From: Tachypleus tridentatus | Taxonomy: Eukaryota; Arthropoda; Merostomata; Xiphosura; Limulidae | Direction of reading: 5' to 3' | NCBI RefSeq assembly: GCF_004210375.1 | Contig: NC_134834.1 | Coordinates: forward strand, 151,747,009 to 151,811,008 | DNA: 64,000 nucleotides | Shown here: in pieces, positions 6,262 to 55,100 of the stretch | How positions within the stretch are numbered: position 1 is the first letter of the stretch | Layout of the letters: each line of letters begins with the position of its first letter | Position numbers and translations under genes: made by a program | Notes under the pieces: generated by a model | What the model saw: the letters and a program-made list of their open reading frames with translations, nothing else | What the model was told of the DNA's origin: nothing | Database searches by the model: none

Positions 6262-9200
6262 CAGTTAGTTAGAATACCATCACATAAGAAAAACACAACA
6301 ACAGTATTGTTCGTAATAATATCATAAGATAAGAAACATATTATTATGACAACGGGTTTGAACCAAAAAAAGAAAGAAACGCGTAACAATATCGCACGTA
6401 GTTTCGATATAAATTAATTTGTGGACCAGAAAGCAGCGATTCATCAACTTAACACTATATTGTAACATTTTAATAGTACATTTAATTTTTAAAATGTTTT
6501 ACTTTTCACCATATCTGTTAAAACAACTGGTTTATGATTCCTGCTTCTCTGTGACACGTGCTCCTCATGTGACATGGTTGTTAGATGGATGAAGGTACGT
6601 GATTACCAATTCTATACACTTTTACATTACAGTCAAGACTTTCGTGTTTTTATTTTTTGTAAAATATGGCACTATGACAATATTTACATTTAAATGATTT
6701 TACTCCAAGAAATGCCTGTTTTAAAAGTGATAATATATTTATATTTTTATAGGTATGGTCGTTCAACCAAACGATAAGATTCTGATTCAAATGGTTGCTG
6801 CAAATAAACATAACAAGAACGTTCACGAAATTAAAAAGTTGTGGAGAAATATTTCTTCAGAAAGAATAGTCAATCAGAAGTAATTACCGTCAGTATTTGT
6901 TCATGTTGTTTATTAATATTTGTTCTAATTGTTTGAAATCTATTATGAAGTGAAAACTGGAACAGACGGGACGCAACTCTGTATCACCCACCTGTATAGT
7001 AAGTAAATTTTAACTCTTAAAAATGCCACCTAGTGGCGCAGCTGTATGTTTACGGACTTGGACAGCTAGAAACCGGGTTTAGAAACCCATGGTGGCCAGA
7101 CAACAGATAGTCTGATGTGTCGGTCTTTGCTTAATTCCAAAGAAACAAACTCGAAGAAACCGATTGGCAATAAATTCTTCGTCAGAGTTAGTTAGGCCCA
7201 GTGATATGAATTAGGTAAACATCAAGAGTACATTGTTTATTAACTAATATACAGTACTGTGAAAAGTATTTCGGTAAAGTCAGGCTATTTTCAAACAACA
7301 GTGGAAGGTAAATCACAGGTGAAACATCAACATATTACTAACCTTCATATTTAGTACAACAGAAACTCACTTGAAGTGGTTGAGTTCAACAAACAGTTAA
7401 TATTTTGTTTTATAACTGCAGACAGTCTTAGAGACATTGTTATAACATATTTAATCAAAGTGTCCTTTGAGATTTTACTTCAAACGTCTCTAATACACTA
7501 CCATAAAGTTCCTTTACAAGTAACTTGTGATTTGTCAAGTTTTTGAGCTGTAAAATCCCAGATCTGTTCAACTAGATTGAGATCAGAGCTCTGTGGGGGT
7601 CATTGTATCATTTAAAGGACTTCAACAGCTTATTTCCTAGATAAGTAATTTCTGTATAAGTGGGATGAGTGTTTTGGATAACTATGTTCTTGGTAATGGA
7701 AACCTTTACCAATAATACGGTATACCAAATATCAAATTACGGTATACTATGATGGATCAGTATCTGATGGTACATGCACTAGTCCATTATTCCATCTATT
7801 TTGTAAATATCTCCTGTTGCCTCACCAGAAAAACACCCCTAAGTCATCACACTGCCTCCCCATGCTTCATGGTAAGTGTTATGCAGTAAGGGAAATATCT
7901 TTCATCTTTATTCCACTGAAGGTACAACCTACAATTTTAATCTATATATTTCGAACCTTGACTCATCAACAGTCCAGTTTTTGTGCTTTCTACAAAATTT
8001 CAGTCTCTTGACAATATTTGAAGATCAAAGTGGAGGTTTTTTTAAACTGCAACACGACCAAATATTCCATTCTAGTTGAGTCTTCTAGATACTTTAGGTT
8101 TGGACACTTTTCTATCATTTGATACATGGTTGTTTATCTTATGCCTAAGATCAGTAGTAGTCTTCCTTCTGCCCTGAAGGATACATAAACGAAGATACTT
8201 AACATCAGTATCAATAAGTTTAGGTGTTCTGTCTCTTCCTTTCCTATTTTCAAATTTACCTGTTTTGGTCTCACAACGTATGATGTTTTTGACAGTGTTT
8301 AGGGAACATTTCAAGTCTGCAGTAATCTGTCTAAGAGTCCAACCAGCATTATGTATAGCTTTTATGTAAACTCTCTGCTCTAATGACATTTGTATGTGTG
8401 TTTGGGGGCCACGGCATAACAACAAAACTTAATATATATTCTTAAACACTGTTTTTACCAAGGTTTATATGTGGAGTGTTATTAAATTGATTTCTTCTAA
8501 CATGCACTGCTGGCCAAAATCTTAAGGTCAATGGACATAAAGAAAAAATATGCATTTTGCGTTGTTAGACTCAACCACTTTTTTGAGTAGAGCTTCGAAA
8601 GATGGAAATAAGAAAAGGGGAAAAAAAAATTTAGCATTTAATAGGGAAAATGTGAACACTATGAAATTAGCCTAAATACTAGCTGATTAAAAGTTTAAGA
8701 CCATACTGAAACGAAGCATTAATTGGTAAATACTTAACGAAATTTAGCCATTTGTGTTCAAGCGTTAGCGTTGTCAACATCTCCTACTCACATCTCCTGT
8801 GTTACATTGAGTAAAAACATGGCAAAGGCTAAAAGTTGACAGTTTGAATGTGGCAGAATTGTCGAGCTGCAAAAGTAAGGTCTCCCTCAACGTGCCATCG
8901 CTGGTGAGATTGGGCGTAGTAAAACTGCTGTTGCAAATTTCTTAAAAGACCCTGAGGGATGCGAAACGAGAATTTCAAATGGTCGGCCTAAGACAATTTC
9001 GCAGGCGTTGAGCAGGAGGATTCGATGGGTTGTCTGGCAAGACACCAGCCGATCGTCGAACCAGATTAAGGCTCTTACGGACGCAGAATGCAGCTCAAGA
9101 ACAATAAGATGGCATCTACGAGAGAAAGGCTTTAAAAACCGTAAACATCTTCAAAGGCCACACCTCCTTCCGCACCACGAAACAGCTCAGTTAAACTTTG

Positions 9201-12200
9201 CTGAGAAGCATCAATCATGGGACTTAGAAAAGTGGACGAAGGTTTGTTCTCTGATGAGAAAAAATTCAATCTGGATGGTCCAGATGGCTTCCAACGTTAC
9301 TGGCACGATAAGGATATCCCACCGAAAACATTTTCTACACGAAACAGTGGAGGAGGTTCCATCATGATCTGGGGTGTTTTCTCCTTCCATGGAGCAATGG
9401 AGCTTCAGGTTATAGAGGCGCGTCAAACAGCAGCTGGCTACATTGGCATGTTGGAGAGGGCATCCTTATTGACTGAAGCCCCTCGCTTGTGTGGACATGA
9501 CTGGATCTTTCAGCAAGGCAAAGGACTTTTTCATGGCGAATCACGTGATTTTTTGGACCATCCAGCTTGTTCGCCCGAACTGAACCCCATTGAAAATGTT
9601 TAGGGGTGGATGGCAAGGGAAGTCTATAGAAATGGACGTGAATTCCAAACATTGCATGATCTTCGTGAAACCATCTTCACCACTTGGAATAACATTCCAG
9701 CCAGTCTTCTACAAACGTTTATATCGACCATGCCAAAGCGAATGTTTGCAGTTATTCGCAATGACGCCCGTGCAACTCATTACTGAGACCTTTTGTTGGG
9801 CATTTCCTACCCTAAACTAGGACTTCTTTTTGGAATGGTCTTAAACTTTTGACCAGCTAGTATTTAGGCTAATTTCATAATGTTCACGTTTTCTCTATTA
9901 AGTGCTAAAAAAGTTTTTTATTTTTATTTCCTTTTTCTTATTTTCATCTTTCGAAGCTCTACTCAAATAAGTGGTTGAGTCTAACAACGCAAAATGCATA
10001 TTTTTTCTTTATGTTCATTGGCCTTAAGATTTTGGCCAGCAGTGTATATATCAGTACCATACGCTAACTTTTTGCTAGTTTCTGTCTATATAGTTAAGAC
10101 ACTACATAGGGTACCATGACAGTTATTTCAGACCCTAAATTTGATCAGTACGTTCATTCAAACATAACCCTTATAACATGTCCTCGATACAAATATGTGG
10201 GAATTATAAAGAATGACAAGTATTCTCACCCTGGCTCATTCAATTGTCAATATGGATCAGTGAAACATTGCCATAGTGTTAAAATATACATTCTATAATG
10301 ACATGGAAGAATTAGCCCCATAAAATGGAAAGAATAAAGATATTCCCAACACTTTTACACAGTACTGTACCTGTGCTGTAAGTATTATCACGGGTTCGAA
10401 TCTCTGCTATTATTTAAGTTCAGGGTGATACACCCCACACAATTTTTTTTAAAAAACTTACTGTGGCCAAAAGTACACGTCGATAAAAGGCTTTGTGTCT
10501 CTCGATACGTTTTGTTCAAAAATGTAATTTTTTTTATAGGTAATGAGAAATTGAAGTTCAATTTATAAAATACATTTTTCACTCAGTAATATAACATGTT
10601 TGACACTGGTTTACTTCTGTGGTTCAATTTATAGAATACTGATATTTTTACATGTTTGTATATTTTGCTTAATACTGGTTTACTTCTCTAGTTCAATTTA
10701 TGAAATTTTGACATTGTTTACACCATAGTATACCATGTTTAATACTTGTTTACTTTTGTGGTTGAATTTATAAAATACTCACATTTTTACACCATAATAT
10801 ACCATGTTTAATACTGGTTTACTTTTGTGGTTGAATTTATAAAATACTCACATTTTTACACCATAATATACCATGTTTAATATTGGTTTACTTCTTTTGT
10901 CCAATTTATAAAATAATGATATTTTTTACACCAATTTATACCATCTTGATGCAGGTTTACTTCTCTAATTCAATTTATAAAATACTGAATTTTTTTACAC
11001 CGATGTATACCATATTAATACTGGTTTACTTCTCTGGTTTAGTTTATAAGACACTGACATTTTTTACACCATAGCATACGACGGTCAAAAAAGGTTGGCT
11101 TCTCTGGTTAAATTTCTACAATACTGGCATATTCGACACCATAGTGTACCATGTTTATTACAGGCTACTTTTCAGGTTTAATTTGTTAAATTAAAATTAC
11201 TGGTTTACTTCTCTAGTTCCATTTATATAATACTGGCATTTTTCACACCTTAGTATATTCTTTTTAATATAGATTAACTTCTCTGGATCAGTTTATAGAA
11301 TACTTAAATTTTTTACACCATAAAATACAATGTTTAATAGACGTTGACTTCTCTGGATCAGTTTATAAAATACTGAATTTTTTTGCACCATAAAATGCAA
11401 TGTTTAATAGAGATTGAGATTGACTTCTCCGGTTCAATTTATAAAATACTGACATTTTTACAGCATAGTATCCCACGTTTTATTCAGGCTAACTTCTCTC
11501 ATTCATTTATAATATACTGATATTTTTGCACAATAAATACCATGTTTAACACAGTTTTACTTCTCTAACCCAATTTATAAAATACTGACATTTTGTATAC
11601 CATGATATACTGTGTTTAATATGGGTTTACTTTTCTGGCTCAGTTATTAAAATACAGATATTTTTTGCAACATAGTATATCATGTTTAATACTGCTTCAC
11701 TTCTGTGGTTAAATTAATAAAATAGTGACATTTGTTACACCACAGTTTCGAATGTTTAATAGAGGTTTATTTCTCTGGTTCCATTTATAAAGGACTGGCA
11801 TCTTTTATACCATAATATAGTATACTTAATACTGCTTTGCTTATTTGATTAAATTTTTAGATACTCATATTTTTTCTCCTTAATATACCATGTTTAATAC
11901 TAGTTTACTTCTCTGGTTCAGTTTATAAAATACTGACATTTTTTTACACCATAGTGTACCATGTTTAATACAGGTTTCCTCCTCTGGTTTAGTTTATAAA
12001 ACAGTAACATTTTTTACAACATAATATACCTATTTAATACGTGCCGACTTCTCTGGTTCTATTTATAAAATACTGACATTTTTTTACACCATAGTATCAT
12101 ACGTTTTATACAGGTTAACTTTTCTTGTTCAATTTATTAAATACTGACATTTTTACACCATAGTATATCATGTTTAATAGTGGTTTACTTCTCTGGTTGA

Positions 12201-15200
12201 ATTTATAAAATACTAACATTTTTCACACCATAACCTACCATGTTGAATACTGGTTTATTCCTCTGGTTGAGTTTATAAAATACTGACATTTTTACACCAT
12301 TGGTTACCGCGTTTAATTCAGGTTCACTTCTCTGGTTAAATTTATAAAATACTATCATTTGTTACACCATAGTATATCATGTTTAATACTTCTTTACTTC
12401 TCTGCTTGAATTAATGAAATACTGGCATTTTTACACCATAATATACCATGTTTAATTCTGGTTTACTTCTCTGGTTCAAGTTATCTAATACTGACATTTT
12501 TCACATCATAATATACTATATTTAATATTGGTTGACTTCTCTGGTTTAGTTTATGAAATACTAATCTTTTTCAGACTATAATTTCTAAGTTTTATTTCCA
12601 TAATATCCTTTTGTAGATAAAGTTTTAAAACCCCTCGTTTTAATCATTAAATAATTTTGAGATGTTTGGAAGTCTGTTGAGTGATAAATTAGAAAAAAAA
12701 TCCAGAAAAATGTTTAGTGACGAAGCGAAAGCTAGACCAATCTTCAAAAGAAAAAATATCTCCATGACAACCGTTGATTCTTGATGAACTTGTGATTATA
12801 TAATAGCTCATTCGTTAAAAAAGTTCATTTTAGTTTCCTTTATATGTTCAATTAATAATTTCCTTTTGAATTTGGATAACATTTCATAATGAAATAGTTA
12901 CAAGTTATCTGAAGGTATTTTAGTTTCAATAATTTAGTTCATACATTATCGATAGATGGCAGTGTATACAAAGATGACTATTCCTTTTGTCAGGAAAGTA
13001 TTGAACTTTCTTTGATTGTTAGAAGTTTCAGTTGTTAGATATACCATTGAGCCACCTGTACACGTTATGTTTGTTTATTTTAATCGACGATGAATTTTAA
13101 ACTCGTCTATAAAACTAATTAAGTTATGAAAAATCTGTTTATTAAGCACCGCGACACTTCACTAATCAACTTTGGTGTCACCGACCTCGCTTGTCTCTTT
13201 AATTTGTTCTTTTAGGCTTCGCTCTACATTTTTTTTATTAATACATTTTAGACTTCATGGTTCCTGCTAATTTCCTTAATAACCACTTTGTTATTGCTTA
13301 AAGTATTCTACAAGGTACCACATAAAAAGATTGTTAAAAATGAACTTACTAAGTGAGAAGGAATAATTGGATTCATTGGATAGAAAGTGGTAGGATAGAA
13401 GTAATTAGAGAGTTGCTATTAAAGGAATTATATCACAAACTGGAGTAATGTCACAAGTTGGTACTCCAGGGTTCAATGCCAGTACCTTTGCTCTATTTAC
13501 TTTGGGTCCGGCATGGCCAAGCGTGTTAAGGCGAGCGACTCCTAATCTGAGGGGTGCGGGTTCGCATCCCTGTCGTGCCAAACATGCTCACCCTTTCAGC
13601 TGTGGGGGCGTTATAATGTGACGGTCAATCCCACTATTCATTGGTAAAAGAGTAGCCCAAGAGTTGGCGGTGGGTGGTAATGACTAGCTGTTTTCCCTCT
13701 AGTCTTACACTGCTAAATTATGGACGGCTAGCAGAGATAGCCCTCGAGTAGCTTTGTGCGAAATTAAAAACAAACAAACTTTTTGCTTTACACCATGACA
13801 TGACATAGATCAAGGACTGGTCAATAAATTACTTAAATTTGCTGATCGTCCGATGAGTTTGTCAAATAAATGGCAGGTGACTTTAATTATAATAAATGCA
13901 AGGTAATGCATGCGAATTTCAGACCTGAACTTGTGAAAGAGCTCATCACGTTGCCTTAGAACGCGTTCATGTACGTTTGTTTTGTTTGTTAACATGTTTT
14001 TTTACTCGTTTCATCAGTCTTTTTGCTGACACCAAGGACAAATTAATTCATGAAGTACGAATGACGGCTGTCATGTATTCAAACACGACCTATGATAATG
14101 AACATTATCGTTATATCTAATTTGTTAAGGTCATGGCCAGGTGGTTAGGGCGCTCGACTCGTAATCCGAGGGTCGCGGATTCGAATTCCCGTCACTACTA
14201 AACATGCTTCTCCTTTCAGCCGTGGGAGCGTTATAATGTGATAGTCAATGCCACTATTTGTTGGTAAAAGAGGGGTGGTGATAATTATCAGCCTTTCTTT
14301 TAGTCTTAAACTGCTAAGTTAATGACTGCTAGCGCAGATAGCTCTCATATAACCTTTCGGGAAATTCAATACAAACAAACAAACATAGCGGAGTTACATA
14401 ATGAACAAATCCTTTGTTTGCTCATTCATAAGCTCAGGCCTGAAATCAATGTTAAACGAAGTGGTAATATAGTGTTTCTAATTTTATTGAATTTTGTGTA
14501 AACATTTATACGAATAACCTCAAGAGTGTAATGAAAAAGAAAGATCCTAGCGTTATGGTTGACCAGTCTATTTAAGTCTTCCAAAACAGCGTAAATAGTG
14601 TCTTAGATTAAATCTATATAAATACATAATACAAGTTTAAAGAGGCTATAACCAAATTGTTTAGCAATAAAATATCTTTATTTCCCGTTTCGTAAAATAT
14701 TTTTTAAAATTTTACAAAGGTTTAACACTTCGTATTTATCTCAATACTTTTGTTTTTAGCTGTTTTTTAATAATGGTCTCGTTAATAAGTTTTGGTTTGT
14801 TTGTTTTTGGAATTTCGCACAAAGCTACTCGAGGGCTATCTGTGCTAGCCGTCCCTAATTTAGCAGTGTAAGACTAGAGGGAAGGCAGCTAGTCATCACC
14901 ACCCACCGCCAACTCTTGGGCTACTCTTTTACCAACGAATAGTGGGATTGACCGTCACATTATACACCCCCACGGCTCTCGTTAATAAGCTTTTGAAAAA
15001 AATATAGAAATATTGAATGCAAATCTAAAGTTACAGTATAGACCATTGGTAACACAATATTTTGTGAATTGTATTCATTCTTGTGATTCTTACCTCAGGA
15101 AGTACGTTGAGTTGTTGGAAGTGGTTAGGGAGAGAGATGCTAGGCTGATAACTGGGATGGGAAGAATGTAATACAAGAATATGCGAAGAACTCTTTAAAA

Positions 15201-24714: not shown

Positions 24715-26822
24715 ATGGACTGTTATCCGAGTCAGCCCATCAATATTGAGATTAAAGATGAACGCCGTGTTGAACCTCTTTGCTCTAATGAAGATGATAA
24801 TGATGATGTACTAAACATGAGACTGGAAGAATTCTGGGATGCCGAAAAGCACCGAGTTCAGCTTGTCGAAAGTCAAGTTTTTTCTAGCAGTTTGGAGAAT
24901 CAATTTCTGTACGAAGATAGCGTTAGCAAACCCGTTTCAGATATATTGGATTTCGCCCAGAAGGTAGGACTGAATATTAGGGTTGGTTAGGCCTCAAATA
25001 GTAGTGAGGCACTTCATTTACTTCTCAACAAATAATATAAGTAGGCCTGTGTTTTGATACTCGCTTTGTATTTTAGGTATGAGAAAACGTAAAATTTATT
25101 TCGTTTGTATATACTGTTTTAAACAAGGTAACAAACTGTTGTTTACGGGTCTTTTATACGCTTTCTGGTATAATAGGTTTTTGTGTGTGTTTTTTAAGTG
25201 CATGTGATGTTTCGTTATCCCCCAACAAAGCCCTGGATTTCCTGTGTAATATAACAATATTCAGCATATTAACTGTATCAGTATTGCTCTATCCTTCCAT
25301 TCAGTTATACCGCGGTAAGTATGGGGCTTATAACACTAAACATCGAGCTCAGATACACACAGCCATTTTGTACCTTTCGAGCTATACAACAAACATGTAA
25401 TGTTAATAGTATGAGCTACGCCTAATAGATATTTTTTCTGTTTAGCAACGGAGTTTTCCAGGGTAATCAAAACAACCCATTTGTAAGTTATAAGTTGAAT
25501 CGGTTGTACTGTATTATATCAGTGCTGTAGGTTAACTTTATAACTATATATGTATATATTTTACATTTTAAACTTTTGATACGAAGTCAAAATTTGTCGT
25601 GCATTTTAAGCCTTGGTTATTGAAATATCGTAATATGTTTCGCATCAGTCAGTTTTCAAACTATGGGATGTATTCCGGTCTTTTCCAAAAAGAAATAAGG
25701 AAAAATTTGGTGCAAATAAATATTTTCCTTAAAAAGAACACTACCATACCACAAGTGATACAGTCTTATATCTGACTGTAGGAGGGTTTGGAAACATGTG
25801 AGACGTACATCATTTTATTTAAAATGCATATCTGAAAATAGTGGGAGTGTGGATGGAATCTATGAAGTGGAAGAACCTCTATTTTACATATTAGTTAGTA
25901 GCTACGTAGACATGAATATAAACGGTTAGTGTTTGTAACACATCCTCCCCCACTCCCAAGCTACTGGTGGGTTAATATTTGCCTTCTATAACAACAATGT
26001 ACTGACCTCAAGTATTCTTTGATTGGTTTTGTTAGCAGGTTCCCACTCGCATCTCTGATGTAGATACCGGTCTTACAATACGTGGCGAAGATATACCAAC
26101 AGTTTACACCATCAGTGGTCTGCAAAATTATGAATTTCCTGTCGTTGGTAAGAGGTTAATAAAATTGTCATTTTCTAATTATAAGATAATACTTTCCGTG
26201 TGTGTATATGTGTACACACGTACAATTTTATATTCTTTTCTTGAATGTTTTCACAGGTACCTACATAGATAGGCGAATTGTACCAGGTTTTAAGTACAGG
26301 GTTCGAATCATTCAAACCGACCTTTATCAGTTCGATGGCAAGGCCTTGAATTTAAAATCAATCGGAATGGGCTATGGAAAGCGGCTGACCTTTGAAAGCG
26401 AGAGCCTGAACTACAATGAAAATTATTTTTGGTCTGACACGGATCCAAATGGTTACGGTTTTACCGTTGTTGCCATGGAGAAGGGTGATGAGTTCATTAT
26501 CAAAGATGATAAAGATGTCGTCTGCGGAGAACTAACAGTAAGAAAATGTTCCAACTCTCAATCTGAGAGAGACATGCGGGTAACCAAAGATGGAGTCGTT
26601 GAAAAAACCATTGAAGTTAGGCTATGGGCTAAAATCAGAAACGCATGCAATGGGCTAGATATTCGGCTAGAAACGAGCCAGGACGTTGAGCTTATAGGAA
26701 TAGTCTCCCTCGTGAGATCAAAGCGAATAGCAGTAGCTGAGGTCCACAGGGTGGAATTTGATGACTGCAGCCTGAAAGGCTACCATCTTGAGACTCGTGC
26801 CAAGAGAAAGAGCGTGACTTGA
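24715..26822 (+). CDS. unrecognised 307-residue protein (three exons)
   Basis: Exons 24715-24963, 26039-26147 and 26257-26822 join in phase (249+109+566 = 924 nt) with GT/AG borders (AAG|gtagga, gttagcag|GTT, GTTG|gtaaga, tttcacag|GTA). Residues 1-83 are acidic, with a run of Asp/Glu/Asn (SNEDDNDDVLNM). From about residue 84 onward the sequence alternates in a way that suggests a beta-rich fold: VPGFKYRVRIIQTDLYQFDG, LNYNENYFWSDTDPNGYGF, EFIIKDDKDVVCGELTVRKC, KTIEVRLWAKIRNACNGLDI. There is no signal peptide or membrane segment, and the C-terminus is basic (RAKRKSVT), which could be a nuclear signal. Base use is clearly coding-like, with GC above the flanks. I recognise no family; the predicted fold is a guess. 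Confidence 0.8.
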
Positions 26823-31775: not shown

Positions 31776-34700
31776 ATGAACGAAGCACAGAAAATTGCAA
31801 AAAACTTGGTGAAGTCTGTGGCTACACAAGAAGTAAGTTTGTATTAAAAAATTGGTATTACTCCATAAGTAAGTTGTAACCAATGTAACCTTAATAGTGT
31901 CTGTTATAGTTTGCATGCTGATTATAGGTATTGTTTTATTGCGACTTACAGATATTATAATAAATAATATTTTTAAAACGAGTACAACTTTTCAGTAACT
32001 GATACAATCATTTTTGACATATAATCTCAAGTTCAAAATAATGATCGCACTAACTATATTTTAGCATAAATTTAAAAGCTGTAACTCGTAGTAATTTAAC
32101 AATTTAATTTTAGTTTACCCTGCAGTATTGCCAACACGTACTTGTAAGTTCTAGGGTTAATTTTGATTAATATAAATTAATTACATATATATTTTAATTT
32201 TTAAAAGTAACGCTGCATAACTGCGTATTTGTATTTTGGTAGTTGTAGAAGTATTAATCTTGGTTTATTTAGGATTAAGCACAAAGTTACGTAATTTGCT
32301 ATCGGTGCTCTGTCCGCCACAGTTATCGAAACCCGATTTCTAGCGGTTTAGTCTGTAGACATAACATTGTGCCACTGGGTGGCAGTATAGTAATGACGCT
32401 CTACCGCTATTCATTATTTATAAATATCTTCTTTTATTCATTTTTATGAAGTTGTTAAGTTTGTTTTTAAAATGTCTGAAATTTGGTTTATAATTATTTA
32501 TTTAACTCGGTTACCAATAGAACATATATAGCTATCTACTTAAAAATATAAAGTGCTAAGTAGCTATGGAACACCTTATCATCCTCGGGAGTTTAGGATT
32601 TATAGGGTAATTAGAAATGTACGTAGAAAAACTTATTATTATAATAAGTTGCCTTTTTATAATTAGTAGGTCATTATGCAACAGGGATGGCACATTAAAA
32701 GATTTGAAAGGCTTTGGCTTCCCAGAGATATGTTCCCTCACTTTGTAGGGTATTGTTCTCACCAACTCAAAATATAATATACTATATATGGACAAAGACA
32801 GAGCGTGTACTCGCAAACTAATTATTCTTAACTGTGCAACAACCCACACCTGACAGAATAACATTCCTGAACAAAGTGATTGTGTTCCACGTCTGGTATG
32901 TGGTCTAATACAAGGTGTTCGGAAAGTCACTGTGCACTTATATATTTATTAACAGACATTTCAATATAGAATACAGGAGGTAAATATAAATGACAATTAT
33001 AAACAATGTTGAAAGTGACCCCCGTTGGCATCAATGCAGGCTTGGATCCTTCTTATTTTGTTTCTAAACACCGCTATCAGTTGCTGGCTTGAAATAGACT
33101 GAATTTTGTGAATTAACGTAACCCGAGAGATGGAACTATGCTCGTCGGTGAAAAAGGTCACATCCAACACATTAGCTGCATTCTCTTCGATAAATCGGTT
33201 AAACCATCTGCAATAGCGTATTCGTTTTTCATTATCAGTTGCTTCTAGTTCTTGTACCGCCATTATTTTGTATGGGGAGAGCTTTAATTTCTTTCTGACG
33301 GCCTTATGAGCAGTTCCAAGACCAATATCATGCTGGTGAGCTAACTTTCGTAATGAATTTGATGGACTCTGCATCACACTGTCAGAAATATCCAACAGTT
33401 TCTCCTCCGATAGCTTTGCTGGCCTTTCACAGCGTTTGGCATCATCCACTGATCCTGTTTCTCGAAACTTATCAACAAGGTTACGAACTGCATTGCGACG
33501 TGGAACAGGTGTATCTGGGAATTTTTCAGCAAATCGCTGTCGCATCACATCTGTGTATCTACCACTTTCTCAGAATACGTGTTCGACGAGCTATACACGT
33601 TCTTCAGTTGTTAAAACCATATTGGGATTAAAATCTGAAATATTATAAAATATGATTACAAAATTGCGCAGTGACTTTCCGAACACCCTGTAGTAAAGGT
33701 TTTATTAATGGTTAGAACAAACAGTGTTTTTCATGAAGTATTTAGCGTACTACATAAGGGAATTTTTTTACTGAAATGATTAGTGAACCAAATAGGGACA
33801 TTTTTTCTCTTCATGTATTTGGAGAACCAACTAGAGACAGTGATTTTCTTTAAAAAATTACAAAACCATTTAAGAACAGTGTTCCACCTTAAGTGGTTGG
33901 GGAAGTAACTAAGGACAATGTTTCTGACATGTAGTTAGGGGTACAGTTAAGAACAGAATTGTTACTATGAAACAGTAATAACTATATCGTCAGGAGAATA
34001 AAGTGCAGAAAAATTTAAGAGTCTGTAATCACTATTTAACTAGATACGAAGTTTTGTTATTGTTTTAAAATCACAGTAAAAATAACTAGTATTCTAACCT
34101 GTATGAAGCCAGAAAGGTGACAGTTTTATAATATCTTTTAACCTGTATGAAGAGAACCTGTATTAAACCATGAGGGTGACAGTTTTATAATATCTTTTAA
34201 CCTGTATGAAGACAGAAAGGTGACAGTTTTATAATATCTTATCTTATAACCTGTATTAAACCATGAGGGTGACAGTTTTATAATAACTTCTATTCCAATC
34301 ATTGTGAAGCTGTGGAGTTTCATGTTATCACAGATGGTCAATTTGAATTCTGAAAGGAAAAGTCGTGTCTTAAGATTTTGCTATCTTTGAGAATGTTGCA
34401 TTTAATCTTATGTTAAGAATGAAACAAATTTGTTGGATTGTTGGAAGGCTTTTGATAAAGCATTACAATAGAAATTACAAAGATGGGAACAAGATGTGAT
34501 AAGATTGTTAAAGTGTAGTTGTGTGGTGTATGACAGAGAACTGTTTCAAATGAGGTTAAATCACTATGGATTTTTGTTAAAACTGGTATATCCCATAATT
34601 CAATGCTGGTTTTAATTAATAACTTTGGTAATAAGGTAAAAATATGTTAATTTTATAGATATTCATGTGTATTTCCCACTTAACATAGATGCTTTACATT

Positions 34701-37700
34701 TCTAATTATATTTGGATTATCTGTGATCTGAAATGTTATGAGACCTTTTAATATTATTATGAGGAATATTACACATACCAGATACAATAAATAACTATAG
34801 AAGCAGTTGAGCAGAAACATTATTTGACTATAATATAGTCTCTAAAGTGTCCTAGACAATGAAGTTTAGTTAGTGATACATGATGTGAGGTTGTATACAT
34901 AGTTATAGAGTACAACTCTAAGGAAGGTGTAAGTTTACTCTATGAAGTACTTATTAAACCTACTTGGTACATTGTTTGTACTTTTTGGTGTGTTTTTTTA
35001 TAAAATTGTTTTACTGGAAAAAATTTAGGTGTGATTCCAGGTGTTTGGGTGCTCATGTAGGCTGAAATCTCCACTAGACTGATTCCATGTCTGGAGTTGT
35101 GTGTTGTTTTGGAATAAGTTTAAATCTCTTGACATGTTTCTGCTAGAATCTTTCCAGGTCTGGAGGGGTGTGTTGCATTTTAATAGGTCTAAATCTCCTG
35201 ACATGTTTCTGCCAGGTTGATTTTAGTTCTGGAGGGGTATATTGTATTGAGATGGGTTTAAATCTCTTGACATGTTTACACTTCAGAAAAAGAGACATGA
35301 CTGGAGGTTTTATGATTATTACAGACTAGGAATTCACATAATTACATAAACTAGGGGACACCAGTTTAAGATATAGATAACTGTTAGAACTCAAGTTGGT
35401 AAAATTTTACTTTTCTTTTAGATGACTGTTCTGTGAAATAGTTCACTTTGGGATCTGACAGTATAAGCAACTGCAGGAGTTTAAAATATTGGACAGATAT
35501 TTTGGATATAAGGAGTTTTAAATGTGTAGATCCAATAGACTGGTAGTAAAAGTGGGTTAGCCTAAATGGACTAAATGAACTCTTGTTATGCCTTGAATGA
35601 AACAGTTCTTTTAATATGTATGAAAAATGGTATGTACTGTGTAGAAATTAGTGATTATTACAGATACCACAGAAGAAACTTAGGGTATTGTACCTGACGT
35701 AGCTGTGTGATTGTTACAGATACCAGTGATGAAACTTGGGTATTGTACCTGAAATAATTTGCATAACTGTGCAGAGTTAACATATTTTTAAAACCATTTG
35801 GTTTCAATGCTGATTTTATACATTACATAATCCTAGAAAAACGTATCTCACATGTTATTTTTAAATACATAAATAAGAACAGCTTCTACTCTTCTGGTAA
35901 GTAAAATTTGTACAACACTGAAAAGTCTGGAAAGAAGTTATATTTCAGCAATGAATTTAAACCTTGAATTCTTGAAATGTAAATTATTTCCTCTTTCATT
36001 CTGTAGAATGTTGCCATTGAAAACTTCTGGGCTAAGCAGCCGTGTGTCATCACATTTTTTCGCCGTTTTGGATGACCTTTTTGCCGCCTGGGTGCCCGTG
36101 AACTGAGTAGTGTTAAGTCTCGGTTGGACGCCCATAATGTGCGGCTAGTTGGAATAGGCCTAGAAGACATTGGAGTTCAAGAATTTGTGGAAGGAAATTA
36201 TTTTAAAGGAGGTAAGAAAGAGTGCTAAGTACTATTGTTTCAAATTCTGGAAAACAAACTTATTTCTTTACTACATAGAAATGTTTAAAAACAGAAATAA
36301 TATAACTGAAACAACAACTAATGAAGATGAATTGTTTATTATTGATGTTTTAATACTAATTGATATATCAGTAATTCCTAAACTATCATTTTTATCACTG
36401 ACAAACATGTTTGTGGAAATATAACTTCATGCATAACTTCTCTGATTCACAGAACTTTACTTAGATAATCAGAAAAAAACATACCGAGCCTTAGGATTTA
36501 AAAGGTAAGGAATAGATTTTTGACATTTATGCTTTTATTACCTTTATCACATGAGAAAATTTTTTAATCTTATGTCATGAAATTTTCTTTACTTATCTCA
36601 GAGGGTTTTTATATTATTTGTTTCTCTTATTTTTACTTTACCAAGAGGGTTTCTACACTGTTATTTTTTAACCCTTTCAAGTTATACATCTGTATATCTT
36701 ATAACTGTGTTAGTGTTATTTTTTATAAGTATTAACCCATGAAATAATTGTATAAAATCTGTATGGTCATCAATACAGTTTTCTTTGGTTTTTTTAGGCT
36801 TAGCTTCTTCAACGTCTTATTAGGAATGTTCAATAAAAAGTCACGTGATGCTTTGGAAAAGGTAAGAAACTAGGCTTAGGAGAAATGAAAATTTACTTTG
36901 TCACTTTTATGATACTGTAAAATAGATTGAAATAACAAGAGTTACTGATAATTTCTTTTATTATGTATTTGTAATCTTTTCTAGTTTGGAATATTTCACA
37001 GTTGTTTTGTCTTTTGTCAAGTCTTGTGGTTCTCTGTTTTTGAAATAATAAACTGTTTTACTTATGGAAGCTTCCACAGTAGCTGTGTGATGATATTGGA
37101 TAGAATTTGTCATGTTTCAAAAGCTGTTCAGAAATTAGGCTTATGTAGATGTAAGCTGCTAGCTATGATGGTAATTGTCATTCTTGTTATTTTTATTTAG
37201 GTTAAAGAATTAGGTGTAGGTGGTGACAAGAAAGGAGATGGATATCAAAATGGTGGAGCATTAGTTGTCAGTCAAGGTAAGATGTTTTGACTAAATCAAA
37301 GAATAAAGAAGTTACTCACACAAAGGATGAGCTCTACGTTTTAGAAAATAGTGAGTGTAATTACTTCCTTGAACAAGAGATAAAACTGTTCTGTGTGCTC
37401 TTAAAAATCTTATCCTGTTAACTTGTGTTTTGGGTATGAGGTTCTAAAAAAAGTAAAATGCAGAGAGAATAAGTATGATATATTTTTTCATCGTTATTAA
37501 ACAGATGAAAGTACCATTATTGAACTTCCATAAATTAGTTGTTTCATATTTTCAGAAGTTTATGATAACCTAATCTGAACTTTTTATATTCTAATGCTAT
37601 GTCAAATTATTTGCTACTTACCAGCATGTTCTGTGCTGTTTATTGTGTACTGTTTATAGTATCTTCTCCACAAATTTAATTTAGAATGTTTTTTTTTTAA

Positions 37701-37845
37701 CCTTGATATGATAGGAGGTGAAGAAGTTTTATTATCTCACAAGCAAGATGAACCATCAGATAATGTAGATCCTGAGGAGGTCATCAAAGCTCTTGGCATT
37801 CTTCAAGAAGAAGCATCTGCTGAAGGTGGAAGATATACTGCTTAG
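31776..37845 (+). CDS. PRXL2B: peroxiredoxin-like 2B, predicted selenoprotein (SelU family)
   Basis: Exons 31776-31832, 36007-36211, 36453-36504, 36798-36861, 37201-37276 and 37715-37845 join in phase (585 nt) with GT/AG borders into 194 residues. That is close to the roughly 198 of human PRXL2B/FAM213B. The thioredoxin-fold redox site reads CVITFFRRFG-[TGA]-PFC-RLGARELS: an in-frame TGA at 36073-36075 takes the place of the first Cys of the family's CxxC. Downstream blocks match the family well: VRLVGIGLEDIGVQEFVEG, ELYLDNQKKTYRALGFKR, GDGYQNGGALVVSQGGEEVL. A SECIS element follows in the 3' region, so TGA is most simply selenocysteine at residue 42 (U-x-x-C). The mammalian protein reduces prostaglandin H2 and prostamide H2 with thioredoxin; the substrate in this animal is unknown. 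Five exons in phase with no other lesion argue against a pseudogene. PRXL2B rather than A or C is chosen by overall pattern from memory. Confidence 0.9.
32262..32388 (-). repeat. tRNA-derived SINE, family C
   Basis: Minus-strand copy in PRXL2B intron 1: 'gccacccagtggcacaatgt' head, 'agaaatcgggtttcgataac', then 'agcaccgatagcaaattacg'. Confidence 0.6.
32911..33690 (-). mobile_element. mariner-type element, internally deleted (780 bp)
   Basis: Near-identical inverted ends (GGTGTTCGGAAAGTCACTG at 32914 and its complement ending near 33687) are bordered by TA at 32909-32910 and 33691-33692. The interior is a transposase gene on the minus strand that lacks its middle. It sits in PRXL2B intron 1. 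The size is about half that of a full element of this group. Confidence 0.85.
32997..33548 (-). pseudogene. mariner-type transposase with the catalytic middle deleted
   Basis: An open frame of 183 residues. It begins within the HTH part (MMRQRFAEKFPDTPVPRRNA, KLLDISDSVMQSPSNSLRKL, GTAHKAVRKKLKLSPYKI) and reaches the first catalytic region DVTFFTDEH. It then jumps to the extreme C-terminal block of the family (RNKIRRIQACIDANGGHFQH). The second and third acidic catalytic positions are gone. Upstream, 33549-33631 holds the expected earlier N-terminus in a broken frame. The join stays in frame, so a truncated DNA-binding protein could be encoded, but expression is unsupported. Confidence 0.8.
34097..34300. 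repeat. short tandem repeat, ~50-bp units
   Basis: Four units sharing 'aacctgtat(g/t)aa' and 'gtgacagttttataatatct', in two alternating versions (…agacagaaag… and …aaccatgagg…). Located in PRXL2B intron 1. Confidence 0.8.
35060..35290. repeat. three ~85-bp tandem units
   Basis: Units share 'tctggaggggtgtgttg', 'taaatctcttgacatgtttc' and 'tgccaggttgattt'-like segments. In PRXL2B intron 1, where looser repeats also occur at 33730-33990. Confidence 0.7.
36073..36075 (+). other. PRXL2B: in-frame TGA, predicted selenocysteine codon
   Basis: Codon 42 of the assembled PRXL2B frame, in exon 2 and three codons before a conserved Cys (TGC, 36082-36084). Both sides are open and conserved. With the downstream SECIS this is read as selenocysteine in a U-P-F-C redox motif. 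A sequencing error or a recent TGT/TGC-to-TGA mutation is the alternative, but it would not explain the SECIS. Confidence 0.85.
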
Positions 37846-38005
37846 CTTAAACATTGTTTGGGGCATAATATAAAATCATAATATTTCAATATATATATAT
37901 TTTTAAGGATATAGATAGTTTTATAAGTATTTCAAATATCATGATTGTATTAATATGTCTGGTATGTAAAAACTATTTGTTGCTTCAGAAAATATTAAGC
38001 ACAAT

Positions 38006-38074
38006 CAAACTGTAACATATGAAGCTACACTGTAAACCAAAACAGCAGTGTAGTGGATGAACATTAATAGTTTG
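38006..38074 (+). promoter_or_regulatory. SECIS element in the PRXL2B 3' region
   Basis: The core has ATGA at 38019-38022. Helix II GCTACACTG (38024-38032) pairs with CAGTGTAGT (38046-38054), nine pairs with one G-U. The unpaired AAA at 38034-38036 lies 11 bases after ATGA, and the opposing GGAT supplies GA at 38056-38057. The lower helix is closed by CAAACT (38006-38011) with AGTTTG (38069-38074). This is the eukaryotic SECIS layout: non-Watson-Crick quartet, AA in a 13-base apical loop. It lies 174 bases after the PRXL2B stop and before the AATAAA. Confidence 0.88.
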
Positions 38075-38146
38075 GTATGGAAATGATGAGAGTCAGTTAC
38101 TAATACTACTGTTGTTTCTTTTATGTAATATAATCTCTCTAATATG

Positions 38147-38152
38147 AATAAA
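38147..38152 (+). terminator. polyadenylation signal AATAAA of PRXL2B
   Basis: About 300 bases after the stop and 73 bases after the SECIS element, placing the SECIS inside the expected 3' UTR. Confidence 0.6.
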
Positions 38153-38473: not shown

Positions 38474-40991
38474 CAGGGGTGGCCAAACAGCAGCTCTTTG
38501 ACATATAATGTGCAGCTCACAGAAATACATTGGCTGAGCTTCTTTTTGCATCACAATTAATACAAAAAGTAAATAAAAAAATTTCAAGCTTTATAATTAC
38601 AGTGTTTTACCAGAAAAAGGTGGGAGTCCACTGGATTAAAACGTAAGTTTAATGTTCATGGTGAGTAAATATATTTAAGAATTTAAATCTTAATTTTAAT
38701 GCTAGATTGGAGTCGGGGATTAAAGAAGTTTCAGATCAGCTAGGATTACAGAGGAATTGTGCTAGAGAATCAGTAGTCATACAAGCTGGTGCTGACAATG
38801 TTAGTCTTAATGGGCATGGCTTGTAGTTGTGTAATTGTGGCTGTGTTCGGGCAGTGAAATAAGCAGAGTGTTAGTGGGATACTGGGTGCTGTTGAGTTTG
38901 GTTGCATTGCATGTGTTGGAGCTTATTGTTTCTTTTCACTTTAATTTTTTTTTAGAAAAAACAAGTCTACTGTATTAAAATCATCACTAAATAGCCAGCA
39001 GATACTGTTCAGTAACGAAGTTGGCACAGTGACTGAAGCTAGTTTTGATATATCATGATGGTGAATTTGTTAAGAAGAATAAAGCTGAAGTTGTTGCAGT
39101 GTTAGATCCAAATAACACAAAACTTCAGCAACAAATAGCATAAACACCAGTTTCGTGCCACACTACAGAGAGACGTATCTGACAGATCAGTGCTGATGTT
39201 GCAGGCAAAATGCAAAATGATTTAAAGAATTCCCTGCATTCAACTTAGCCCTTAATGAATTTACAGACATACAAGACAACCCACTACTGGCAGTATTTGT
39301 TTGTTATGTTTCCTCTTATGTAACTGTGAAAGAAGAGATGTTGGACTTTGTGGCACTAAAAGAAACAACTCATAGTATTAACATTAAAAATGCATTTGAC
39401 AGAGCCTTAACAAATGCTGTTATTCCACTGGATAAAGTCATCAGTGTTGCAACAAATGGAGTACCTACAATGGTGGGGAAAAAGTATAGGATTAATTGCA
39501 CTTCTGAAAAGCAATTCCAACTTTCCAGAGTTTCTTCCTGTTCATTGCATTAGTCATTGTGAACACCTGGTAGCCAGATACTTCAAGTATAAAGGTGTTA
39601 TGAAATTTGTTCTTGAAATTGTCAATTTCATACGCTTAAATGGGAATACCCACCAATAGTTCAAAACGTTTATTGAAGAACTGGAGCTTGAAGATAAACC
39701 TAGTGATGTCTCTTTCTACTGCATTGTGAGGCAGCTGTCAACCAGCAATATTTTAAATAGGTTTATGGATCAGTTGGAGCCTGTTATTACTTTTCTTGAA
39801 GAAAATAAAAGATTCTATCCTCAACTGGAAAATGATGAATGGATGCAAGATCTAATGTTCCTTACTGATGTAATGAATCATCTACAAACTCTCAAATTGG
39901 CACTCCAGGGGAAGGATAAGATTGTTTCGATCTTACTCAGACAATTTTCAGCTTTTAGAATAAAATACTTTTTCAAAGAGACATATTGTCAAGAAACTTC
40001 ACTTACTTTCCCAGTCTAAAAATGAGAGTAAATACATTCCCTGATATTGAAATAAAAGACCACAAACTGAAAGAATACAAAAATAAATTACAAGGACTGC
40101 TTGATAATTTCCTAGATAGGTTTGAGGACTTGCAGAAACTGAAGCCCTGCTTTGCCTTTCTTGTAAATCCATTCATGGTTGATGTGATCAATGATGGTTG
40201 TCCAATTCTCAAACCTCTAGTTACAGAATCATCTGCTGTGGAAATGAAAATAATAGAACTACAGGAAGACCTTGGTCTAAAGTTGATCCATAAATCCCAT
40301 TCTACAATTGAGTTGTGGAAGCAAATTCCAGATATAAAATATCCTGAACTGAAGAAAACTAGTGTGTGACTCATCTCAATTTCCAGCATGACGTACTGCT
40401 ATGAATCACTGTACTCTGTAATAAACTTTCAAAGTCAAAGCGTCATGCAATCCTTACAAATCAACACCTGATGGAGGTAATTCATACAGCCTTGGAAAGG
40501 TGGCATCTGATTAAAATATCTAATTTTATTGTTTTACAAATTTTCCTCTATGTTTTGATCAGATATTTACTAAGACATATAAATATCATTAAAAATATCT
40601 GTTTTACCCCAAATATTTATGGCTGTCTCATTTAATGTTAATGAAATGCAAACTTGCATATTTTTCTTAAATGTTTCTGTAGTTCATTACCATGTTAAAT
40701 ACACTCAATAGAGTTAAAACAATAATCAGCGAGGATTTTGAAAACATTTGGTATATATATTATGTACTTTGTAATTATTGAAACAAATGCAAATTAACAG
40801 TTTGAAAACTACATACATGAATAAATATTATTACATACATGTATTTCTTAATATATATATACAATTTATGTAACAAAATGTGTATGTAACAATAAAAATG
40901 CGTGTATGATATTTGTTCATGTCTTGTGGCTCTCAAACATCTGAAATTTATCATATGCGGCTCTTAGGTTATGCAAGTTTGGCCACCTCTG
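38474..40991 (+). mobile_element. hAT transposon, 2518 bp, with 8-bp target duplication
   Basis: Ends CAGGGGTGGCCAAAC and GTTTGGCCACCTCTG form imperfect 15-base inverted repeats. The 8 bases CTCTAGTC appear on both sides (38466-38473 and 40992-40999), the hallmark of hAT insertion and close to the superfamily's nTCTAGAn preference. The interior holds a decayed transposase. Confidence 0.92.
39045..40510 (+). pseudogene. hAT transposase (SCAND3/ZBED/GTF2IRD2-type), decayed
   Basis: Across several frames the sequence reads as the RNase H-like and dimerisation parts of a hAT transposase: DGEFVKKNKAEVV, ISADVAGKMQNDLKN, LALNEFTDIQDNPLLAVFV, EEMLDFVALKETTHS, VATNGVPTMVGKK, EFLPVHCISHCEHLVARYF, and late SILLRQFSAFRIKYF, LKEYKNKLQGLLDNFLDRFE. 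These are the blocks of SCAND3/ZBED/GTF2IRD2-like transposases. Stops and at least four frameshifts break it. The N-terminal BED zinc finger is not seen, so it may be lost or never present. Confidence 0.85.
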
Positions 40992-42115: not shown

Positions 42116-42371
42116 CCATGAATGGTAAAAAGAAACAAGACGAAACTAAAGGTTTACAGACTTAACGTTAAACTGCAGGGCTCGATTGTGTTGTTGATCT
42201 CAGTGTGTGCGTATAATTTTGTCAATGGTTTTATACGCACACACCTAGATCAACAACAAACTATAATAAATCCCAAGATAATCTGTGATGACGAAAAAAC
42301 CCACGTGTAGAGAAAAATATATGTGTAAAAACGGCTGGTATGGGTTAAGAAAAAAAGTTTTATGTAGAAGA

Positions 42372-42414: not shown

Positions 42415-42465
42415 AAAGAAAGAAAGAGGAAACTGACCGATAGCTGACCTGAACTTAACCTCAAA

Positions 42466-43140
42466 ATGACAAGAACCGATACACAATTTAAAACAGAAAT
42501 CCACCGAAAAATCACTCATACTGGTCTATACATTCCTTGGGACTCAGCACATAAAACAAAACAAAAACTCAACATACTAAGAAACCAAATAAACACAGCC
42601 ATAAAACTATGCTCACCAAATAAAACTAACGACGAATTAGACAAAATAAAACTATACTTCATTAACAACAATAAGTTTTCTCCACAAACGGTAGAAAACA
42701 TTATACGCACACACCTAGACAAAAAGCAAAATCAACTAACAAAAGTAAATATATCTCACGAATTAAAAAAATCACGAAACCAGATACTGCTACATACCAT
42801 ATATTCCCGACATCAGAAAAATAACCAACATTTGGCAAAAATTAGTAACATAATAAGACATTCCAATTAATACCAGATTTATTTTAAAAAAAACAGGCAC
42901 AAAACTACGGTCTATACTATGTAAAAACTAAACTGACAAACACCACACCAACATAGTTTATAAAATACAATGCAACAACTGCTGCGACTTCTGTATTGGG
43001 GAAACAAACAGAAAAATGGAAACCAGATTCAAATACACACACAAAAGAAAAAAAAAAACACCTTCATACATTTTTGAACACTGGAAATCAAATAAACACA
43101 ACATAACCATAAAAACACCAAGGTACTAAGTAGGGAAACA
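42466..43140 (+). pseudogene. Penelope-like polyprotein, C-terminal remnant with GIY-YIG
   Basis: The first frame is open for 134 residues (from 42466: GLYIPWDSAHKTKQKLNILR, QINTAIKLCSPNK, NIIRTHLDKKQ), then broken. At 42955-43110 another frame reads VYKIQCNNCCDFCIGETNRK, METRFKYTHKRKK and FEHWKSNKHNIT. These are the Cys pair, Y-(I/K), IGET and FEHWKS-HNI blocks of the Penelope GIY-YIG endonuclease. The reverse transcriptase catalytic core is upstream of the preserved part and absent. Several stops make it inactive. Confidence 0.75.
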
Positions 43141-52100: not shown

Positions 52101-55100
52101 CAGAAGCTACTTAATGGCCTATCTTTACTCTGCTCAATTTTAGTCTTAAAATTTATTTTTTTATTTCTAGTTTTTTAAGTTTGTGATTTGAGGATCTTGG
52201 GTTTAATTCCTCTTGTCACAAAACTTGCTTTCTCTGTTTTTGTCATGGCAAACCTTCTATGGCTGTCAGCACCTTTTGTCCATTATTTTTCTTTGTACTG
52301 GACAAATTGTAAACTCTGCTTAACACTAGTTTTTGTTCAACACACTTTTTGAGTGGCTGTTGGCATCTGTACTCCTGCTTTATGTTTAGACACATGATTG
52401 TTCAAGTGAAACACCACCTTCAGAGGCCTGTTGTTTTCGATGCACAATACTTGCCAGCTGCAAACAGTGTATAATAAGTATTGTTGTCACCACATTTTAC
52501 TTTTTTCTGTTTTGGGTGAACTAATGACCATTTTTGTTTATACTGTTATCATTATTGTGTATGTTGGTGGTAGTGGAGTGGTGACCAGAAGGAATGTAAC
52601 TGGCTGACATCTGCCACAAAGCTATATTTTTATTTATCCATTACAAGAATGCGTCTGAATCCACAACATGTATAGAGTTGTGGTATACTACTTAGTTTAC
52701 ATTTTTATCATGTTTCTCAGTGCACTTAGGACACTTTCAATCCACCATTTGCATGTTTGGCCTTTTGCTTTCTGTCTATTTATCTTTATATTGATTGCTC
52801 TTTGTGGCAAAGTAGTTTGTTAAATTTCTTTGTGTATGACAAGGCTGGAACAGTTTTCAACTTCATGCTAATGTTGTTGTTACATATTGGTGACATGCGG
52901 AATGTTTGAGATACCACAGTTCTGTTTTGACAGTGTGGTGTTGATATCCACATTTGGCACTGATAGATAATTGTTATGAAGATAATTTGTAGAGTTTTTT
53001 GTTTCAAGGGATTTTTTTATTTTTTTTTCCAACAAAGGTATTAATTATATTGTTTTCTGGCTTTGTTTATTGCATATGGCATCAATTTCTGCATCAAAGA
53101 TGCTATATTGTAAGATGCTGCTGCCCAGATCTTTGAACTCGCCTGCTTGCTTTAGTGTTTGATTTTCTATTTTAATGTTAAGATTTTGAAATTTTCATTG
53201 ACCTGAAAAGGCTTCAAAAATATCATTTAATTATTAATTTTTATAATGCCTACCCTTCAAAAATATCATTTAATTATTCATTTTTATAATACCAGTCCTT
53301 CAAAAATATCATTTAATTATTAATTTTTATAATACTCGTTCTTCAGAAATATGACTTAATTATTCATTTTTATAGGACCAGTTTTTCAAAAATATTGTTT
53401 ATTTATTTATTTTTATAATACTTATCTTTCAAAAATATGACTTGTTCATTTTTATAATACCCGCCCTTCAAATACATCATTTAATTATTCATTTTTATAA
53501 TACCAATCCTTCAAAAATGATTTAATTATTCATTTTTATAATACCAATCCTTCAAAAATGATTTAATTATTCATTTTTATAATACCTGTCCTTCAAATAT
53601 ATCATTTAATTATTCATTTTTATAATACCTGTCCTTCAAGAATATCATTTAATTATTCATTTTTATAATACCTGTTTTTCAAGAATATCATTTAGTTATT
53701 CATTTTTATAATACCAGTTCTTCAAAAATATGACTTGTTCATTTTTATTGTGCTAGTTTTTCAAAAATATAAATTATTCATTTTTATAATACCAATCCTT
53801 CAAAAATATATAATTATTCATTTCTATGATACCAGTTCTTCAAAAATATGGTTTAATTATTCTTTTTTGTAATACTCATCCTTCAAGAATATCATTTAAT
53901 TATTCATTTTTATAATACCTGTCTTTCAAAAATATCATTTAATTTTCAGTGTTTTTACACTAAAAAGCAGAATTCTTATAACTTGACAAAAATTGAATTT
54001 TTAAACGATTTTAGAAATTAGCAAAAGACTATTAGAAATATAAAACAAAAATTCAAACATGCTTATTGCACATAAATTTAAGTTATTAAATGTAACATTT
54101 TTTGTTGGCATAAACAACCTAAACAATACATAGAAATAATTTATGCATCTTGCATCATAACTTTTTGTTAAATTTTACAATATGTAGATGCAGAAATAAC
54201 ATTTAACAGGGACTGACACCTATACACATAATTTAATTTTATTTATTTATTCTTGTTTATATGCTTACAGAATGGATAGTCAAATTCCAATTTTCCCAAG
54301 TGATATTATTCTGATAGTAGAACATGTTGAAATTAACAAAATATATAGTTATGGTAGGTTAAAGTTCAAGGAACTTGTGTAAATATTAAAATACACAAAT
54401 GTTGTATATTACATAATTAAAATTTTATTTAAAAGCTGATGAAGCATCCTAAAGGATTACATGATTAACTTCCTTTACATTCTCAAGGGTGTGAAAAAAC
54501 ATGCTGGACTTCATATAGGTACATAAATATATGATTCTATAGCTACTAGTTTACATGTTTAAAAAATATACTTTCAGATTTTCTAAACCTTCATTCTTAT
54601 TTAAGTTTGAATTACTGTTATTGAAATATTTTTAAAGTAGATTATTTTTAAATGAGGATGAATGGTTAGAAAATCAGAAAATGTGATGTTCATTTATTGT
54701 CATGAACATCTGACTTTTATAGATCAGGTCCTCTGTTATTGTGGTAAATAGAATTAGGAGATACTGGCCACAGAATATTGTGGGTTAGGATCTGCCTTTT
54801 TTACAAACACTGTGGTTTTGCATTTTGAGTATGTTTATGGTTAATTCACAATAACCTGCTGTGATTGGCTTGCTTCCATTTATGTGGCTTCTATGTGTGT
54901 GGGCAATACATTTAAATTTCTCCTTTGAAGTATAGTCACAGTTCAATAAAACAAACTATAAACCTATGATGTACCTTAAAGAGACAGTATTATGTGACAC
55001 AAGTAGGTCTGAAATTAGCAGAGGGTCAGATTCTGGTATTTGAATGCTACACATTCACTGTATCCAGCTGATTGTAGGTGGTAGTTACCTGTTAATTTCA

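Follow-up and report, generated by a model that had tools for sequence, protein, structure and literature searches.

A horseshoe crab PRXL2B (SelU3) gene with an in-frame TGA at its catalytic cysteine position and a predicted selenocysteine insertion element: a probable chelicerate selenoprotein

The window analysed here is a stretch of 64,000 nucleotides (nt) from the horseshoe crab Tachypleus tridentatus (NC_134834.1, positions 151,747,009 to 151,811,008), and positions given without a contig are counted from its first letter. On its + strand lies the gene for PRXL2B (SelU3, prostamide/prostaglandin F synthase), made up of six exons between 31776 and 37845 (Table 1) and interrupted by five introns, all of which have GT-AG borders. 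Once spliced, the reading frame is kept over 194 codons and closed by TAG, and the sole internal stop is a TGA at codon 42 (36073-36075). The initial annotation had placed a six-exon gene within 36007..38152; the number of exons held, while the interval did not, as exon 1 starts at 31776 and lies 4.2 kb upstream of it, in a phase that fits.

Exon 1 was selected from nine candidates running from an ATG to a splice donor, ranked by their similarity to two PRXL2B N-termini; the chosen one scored 43 and the runner-up 19, and by itself it is a weak match in a genome search (E 0.79). The genome (2.17 Gb in 205 contigs, with handles such as C3) gave 19 matches to coagulin, a family not known outside horseshoe crabs, by which the 'chelicerate-like' genome of the initial annotation can be narrowed to that of a horseshoe crab. 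It was searched with the PRXL2B protein at E values up to 10, and of the seven matches returned six are the PRXL2B exons, while the seventh, a weak one on C3, belongs to an exon of PRXL2A. No second PRXL2B copy was found in this search, and the gene was therefore not read as a recent duplicate; a processed pseudogene was rejected on account of the introns. A genome search with PF13911 gave no match at E 0.001 among nine scored candidates, a result that we attribute to the short exons.

The identity of the gene as PRXL2B/SelU3 is supported by the predicted protein. With Cys put at codon 42, it reaches 92.7 bits against the Pfam family AhpC-TSA_2 (cut-off 27), and its residues 7-186 align without gaps over 180 residues to human PRXL2B (PDB 9us9, E 3.3e-47). 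The two best PDB matches are both human PRXL2B entries, 9us9 and 9usa, the second of which has Ser in place of both Cys44 and Cys47. In the alignment with 9us9, the TGA of codon 42 stands opposite human Cys44 and C45 opposite Cys47, so that the redox motif following RRFG reads RRFG-U-PFC. Identity to the human protein amounts to 11/35 positions before the TGA and 67/144 after it, so the part past the TGA is conserved protein. There is thus an in-frame TGA where a homologue has Cys, with conservation continuing beyond it. Both the name given to the gene in the initial annotation and its claim of a single in-frame TGA at the first redox Cys were borne out. The best NCBIfam match, SelL_rel_redox, scored 71.8 bits where the cut-off lies at 120, and the protein was not assigned to it.

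Downstream of the TAG, a selenocysteine insertion sequence (SECIS) element is predicted from its fold and from a pattern match. The ATGA core lies at 38019-38022, with 173 bases between it and the TAG; an AAA (38034-38036) stands 11 bases beyond the ATGA, and the opposing GA is at 38056-38057. In the predicted fold, helix II pairs 38024-38033 with 38045-38054 in ten pairs, eight Watson-Crick and two G-U, with a lower helix, 10-12 pairs long, closing the element. The strand opposing the ATGA core reads GGAUG and juxtaposes U-U, G-A, A-G and A-G, which we take to be the SECIS quartet. The fold has a z value of -3.1, and none of 200 shuffled sequences was equally stable. The 3' untranslated region (UTR) is taken to span the element from the position of the AATAAA signal, and it holds what is expected behind a selenoprotein gene, a SECIS with an ATGA/GA core and an unpaired AA at the right distance. 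A complete SECIS before AATAAA had been proposed beforehand; every core part is present, and helix II has ten pairs in the predicted fold where nine had been given.

Taking into consideration that: (i) the UGA stands at the catalytic cysteine, and (ii) it is matched by an insertion signal; a selenium-containing enzyme is very probable. We conclude, with high confidence, that horseshoe crab PRXL2B is likely to be an intact gene encoding a selenoprotein, in which the UGA of codon 42 would be read as selenocysteine (Sec). UGA recoding through a SECIS, SBP2 and eEFSec is the general eukaryotic mechanism, and here the 3' UTR element would act through the same two factors to direct Sec-tRNA to codon 42. 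The product would be a thioredoxin-fold, peroxiredoxin-like enzyme with the redox motif U-P-F-C. On the model of the CxxC of the human enzyme, the selenolate of U42 could attack the O-O bond of a peroxide or endoperoxide substrate, Cys45 may resolve the intermediate as a selenenylsulfide, and thioredoxin would then reduce the selenenylsulfide. From sequence we infer that Sec is inserted and how catalysis proceeds, as well as a substrate that by homology would be prostamide or prostaglandin H2. On the substrate the balance is even, for the Sec protein might equally be a general thioredoxin-dependent peroxide reductase whose main substrate is not a prostaglandin, a proposal fully compatible with Sec at codon 42. 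The fold family, by the Pfam match, is peroxiredoxin-like, and Sec commonly serves peroxide reduction; against this, the closest PDB match is the human prostamide/prostaglandin F synthase.

Other genes of the same genome carry TGA at Sec positions (Table 1). For GPx, 17 exon matches were found, and nine covering the catalytic site were examined: at the Sec position eight carry TGA and the remaining one Cys; two of these exons, 29 kb apart on C1, give the same translated stretch. Behind all four GPx last exons examined (L055, L056, L058 and L059) an energy-based scanner placed a SECIS-like element, one per exon, those of L055 and L056 being identical. PRXL2A (SelU1) has further exons, the last one ending in KPSYQ, all joined by homology and order only, and the energy scanner found a SECIS candidate with an extra stem 1388 nt past its stop. 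In a third gene, labelled SELENOH-like on what we presume to be the SELENOH sequence, a TGA stands in a CxxU motif directly before a QVYKRNA stretch. A SECIS-like match (L037:146) lies 670 bases past the stop of this gene; it was met unplanned, by both the energy scanner and the middle setting of the pattern described below, and is probably a real SECIS.

Table 1. Features of the PRXL2B locus (window positions) and TGA-containing genes elsewhere in the genome (contig positions)
Feature	Location	Strand	Remarks
PRXL2B exon 1	31776..31832	+	codons 1-19 (MNEAQKIAKNLVKSVATQE), donor GTAAGT; least certain exon
PRXL2B exon 2	36007..36211	+	contains the RRFG-U-PFC redox motif
In-frame TGA, inferred Sec42	36073..36075	+	aligned to human PRXL2B Cys44
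PRXL2B exon 3	36453..36504	+	spliced model
PRXL2B exon 4	36798..36861	+	spliced model
PRXL2B exon 5	37201..37276	+	spliced model
PRXL2B exon 6	37715..37845	+	stop TAG 37843-37845
SECIS element, 3' UTR	38002..38079	+	predicted fold and pattern match
AATAAA polyadenylation signal	38147..38152	+	sequence
PRXL2A (SelU1)	C3:6301008-6321925 (L018-L020)		in-frame TGA in CxxC, RRPG-U-SLC
Nine GPx catalytic exons, eight with TGA and one with Cys (L043-L051)	C1, C4, C6, C2, C10, C3, C12
SELENOH-like last exon	C2:90579200-90580200 (L029, L036, L037)		preceded by in-frame TGA

If the hairpin behind PRXL2B were a chance structure, the TGA would be read through by another route or would end a short protein. 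How often such a hairpin arises was assessed in the window and 16 fetched loci, 220 kb on both strands or 440,002 strand-bases, a set that leaves out other fetched loci, e.g. L020 with the PRXL2A 3' UTR. A strict pattern (ATGA, at least nine pairs, a correctly spaced AAA in the loop, an opposing GA and a lower helix of at least seven pairs) gave a single match in the whole set, the PRXL2B element. When the 315-base PRXL2B UTR was put through 20,000 dinucleotide shuffles, the pattern turned up in 7 of them. At a middle setting (nine pairs, AA, lower helix of six) there were four matches and 53/20,000 shuffles, and at the mildest setting that was shuffled (eight pairs) five matches and 144/20,000.

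Some observations weigh against the selenoprotein reading at this point. Rfam SECIS_1 has no match to the PRXL2B element, either in 15 kb around the gene or in the UTR, which is the first point in favour of a chance hairpin. The energy-based scanner, which is looser than the pattern, finds six loci at or below -20 kcal/mol in the set, PRXL2B included, and three other loci lie lower than the -22.0 kcal/mol of the PRXL2B element. Lastly, the elements behind the GPx exons L055, L056 and L059 were missed by the strict type of pattern at milder settings, so that the rarity of the pattern measures specificity only. When the PRXL2B SECIS was aligned by sequence with three GPx elements, the cores stayed out of register.

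Rfam SECIS_1, however, is a poor detector in this genome: none of the 150 candidates scored genome-wide reaches the cut-off, the GPx-linked one included, and among the seven sub-threshold matches listed one (C4:70426909) is a SECIS-like element behind a GPx gene, the sole match of the seven recognized next to a selenoprotein gene. Its gathering score is moreover a means of detection and not a defining feature of a selenoprotein gene. As for the loose scanner, a rate of about one hairpin per 73 kb of strand predicts about 0.004 matches per 315-base UTR, with fewer still for the strict pattern, and one of the six loose matches is the probably real element of the SELENOH-like gene. Truncation at the TGA would, besides, cost 152 codons of conserved sequence. 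We therefore regard a chance hairpin as very unlikely. SECIS-like matches were also seen elsewhere in the window, at 49178 (+), at 55977 (-) and at 51033 (-), the last in A+T-rich surroundings and judged by eye to be a chance hairpin.

A recent nonsense mutation in a decaying or polymorphic pseudogene is less probable still. It would account for a single in-frame stop, and only one PRXL2B copy was found, so that an intact paralogue is unavailable for comparison; yet no other stop or frameshift occurs in 194 codons, the splice sites are all intact, the downstream part is conserved, the TGA stands exactly on the catalytic Cys, and a SECIS is rightly placed behind it. Equally hard to credit is a sequence or assembly error in an ordinary Cys PRXL2B, for although TGA is one base from TGC or TGT, an error would leave the SECIS unexplained, and the same assembly has TGA at the Sec sites of PRXL2A and of eight GPx exons.

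With regard to the decoding of UGA as Sec, parts of the machinery are present in the genome, as supported by the tRNA-Sec and SEPSECS genes. SEPSECS is represented by eight ordered exon matches on C7; selenophosphate synthetase gave 12 exon matches, distributed over C1 and C8 and each scoring under the whole-protein cut-off. At least 29 matches to tRNA-Sec that pass the Rfam cut-off lie on both strands of C9:155303979-155722816, a 419-kb region on another chromosome, and this count is a lower bound because scoring was confined to the best 53 among 255,430 first-look candidates. Twenty-one of the matches score 77.6 bits or more and eight score 63-75, and seven of the 28 intervals between neighbours measure 6.77-6.78 kb. 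Eight loci were fetched (L003-L010): seven of the tRNAs are identical and one has a single-base difference, with G73 in all and the anticodon TCA in 8/8. The stretches of about 3 kb around them differ by 0.2-4.1%, and the copies are therefore not one copy assembled many times.

In the accessible text of the Secmarker survey, no genome exceeds four tRNA-Sec genes when copies with compensatory mutations are counted, and a diatom is credited with eleven non-identical predictions (PMC5330540). That survey set aside copies identical including their 100-base flanks, so its counting rule differs from ours and is the stricter one (PMC5330540, accessible text). The cluster may matter more than the PRXL2B finding itself. 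Separately, C8:42.5-69.8 Mb contains arrays of tRNA-like matches, each 81 nt long and often spaced by about 3 kb, that score 46.4 bits to the tRNA-Sec model, under its cut-off; these are perhaps tRNA-Ser arrays.

Only tentatively, and as a rather unlikely extension of these results, we suggest that a prostaglandin F synthase-like enzyme dependent on selenium may have been retained in Ecdysozoa by horseshoe crabs, within an unusually strong Sec-decoding system (about 29 tRNA-Sec genes), and that eicosanoid or peroxide chemistry in this animal would consequently depend on selenium.

Pfam searches of seven other open reading frames in the window gave matches in two, both read as transposon-type: remains with DUF4817 and HTH_32 at 32997-33569 (-), within PRXL2B intron 1, and remains with DUF4371, under its cut-off, at 39221-40369 (+). 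Tc1/mariner- and Penelope-like pieces were recognized by eye only at 8879-9603 (+) and 42448-43129 (+), and long tandem arrays occupy 10555-12562 and 53212-53948, with units of about 69-70 bases and of 43 bases. An open stretch of 210 codons at 26190-26822 (+) looks protein-like and has no Pfam match at E 0.01. For a long near-perfect hairpin at 42182-42262, microRNA matches were obtained on both strands; they are weak, and none reaches its Rfam cut-off. A search of viral contigs found no relative.

The Sec form of this subfamily is already known. SelU3 with Sec, identified with prostamide/prostaglandin F synthase, is reported from non-deuterostome invertebrates in the accessible text of Jiang et al. 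2012 (PMC3473315), which lists eight SelU3 proteins from seven invertebrate species; three are Cys forms, and all Cys forms are in deuterostomes. Those proteins and horseshoe crab PRXL2B have in common the subfamily, the Sec form and an invertebrate host; the species differ, the six surveyed there being a sponge, a placozoan, an anemone, a limpet, an annelid and amphioxus, and the words 'Ixodes' and 'arthropod' do not occur in the main text (Jiang et al. 2012, PMC3473315). A 2013 flatworm study describes, in its accessible part, a family group including SelU as generally conserved across other phyla except Ecdysozoa (PMC3828610). For arthropods, a 2007 survey mentions many selenoprotein genes in shrimp without listing them (PMC2375036), and the centipede genome paper gives 20 selenoproteins, with the list in its supplement and no occurrence of 'SelU' in its main text (PMC4244043), in both cases within the accessible portion. 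No report of Sec-PRXL2B in a horseshoe crab or another chelicerate was among the papers listed, a set with most subscription journals outside it. What is new is the chelicerate member of Sec-SelU3. The initial annotation had presented a Sec form of the B member as extending the range of selenium use; the extension to chelicerates stands, and the novelty was overstated given the Sec forms of SelU3 in other invertebrates (PMC3473315, accessible text). With Sec PRXL2B in a chelicerate, at least one ecdysozoan line would also have retained the form known from other invertebrates outside the deuterostomes. A standard gene predictor would take the TGA of this gene for a stop.

PRXL2A and PRXL2B belong to one superfamily and here share a TGA at the first position of CxxC; PRXL2A is a different subfamily, with RRPG-U-SLC as its motif and its SECIS candidate farther from the stop and bearing the extra stem. 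PRXL2A/SelU1 has a Sec form in fish and birds. Since PRXL2A also has TGA in this genome, the SelU conversion from Sec to Cys becomes datable within arthropods. In vertebrates, according to the accessible text of Mariotti et al. 2012, the Sec forms of SelU all fall within SelU1 (PMC3316567). Human PRXL2B, aligned without gaps to the horseshoe crab protein and with its CxxC in the same place (PDB 9us9, 9usa), has Cys44 where the horseshoe crab gene has TGA, predicted to encode Sec, and the two enzymes would form a natural pair for asking why an eicosanoid-linked reductase uses selenium.

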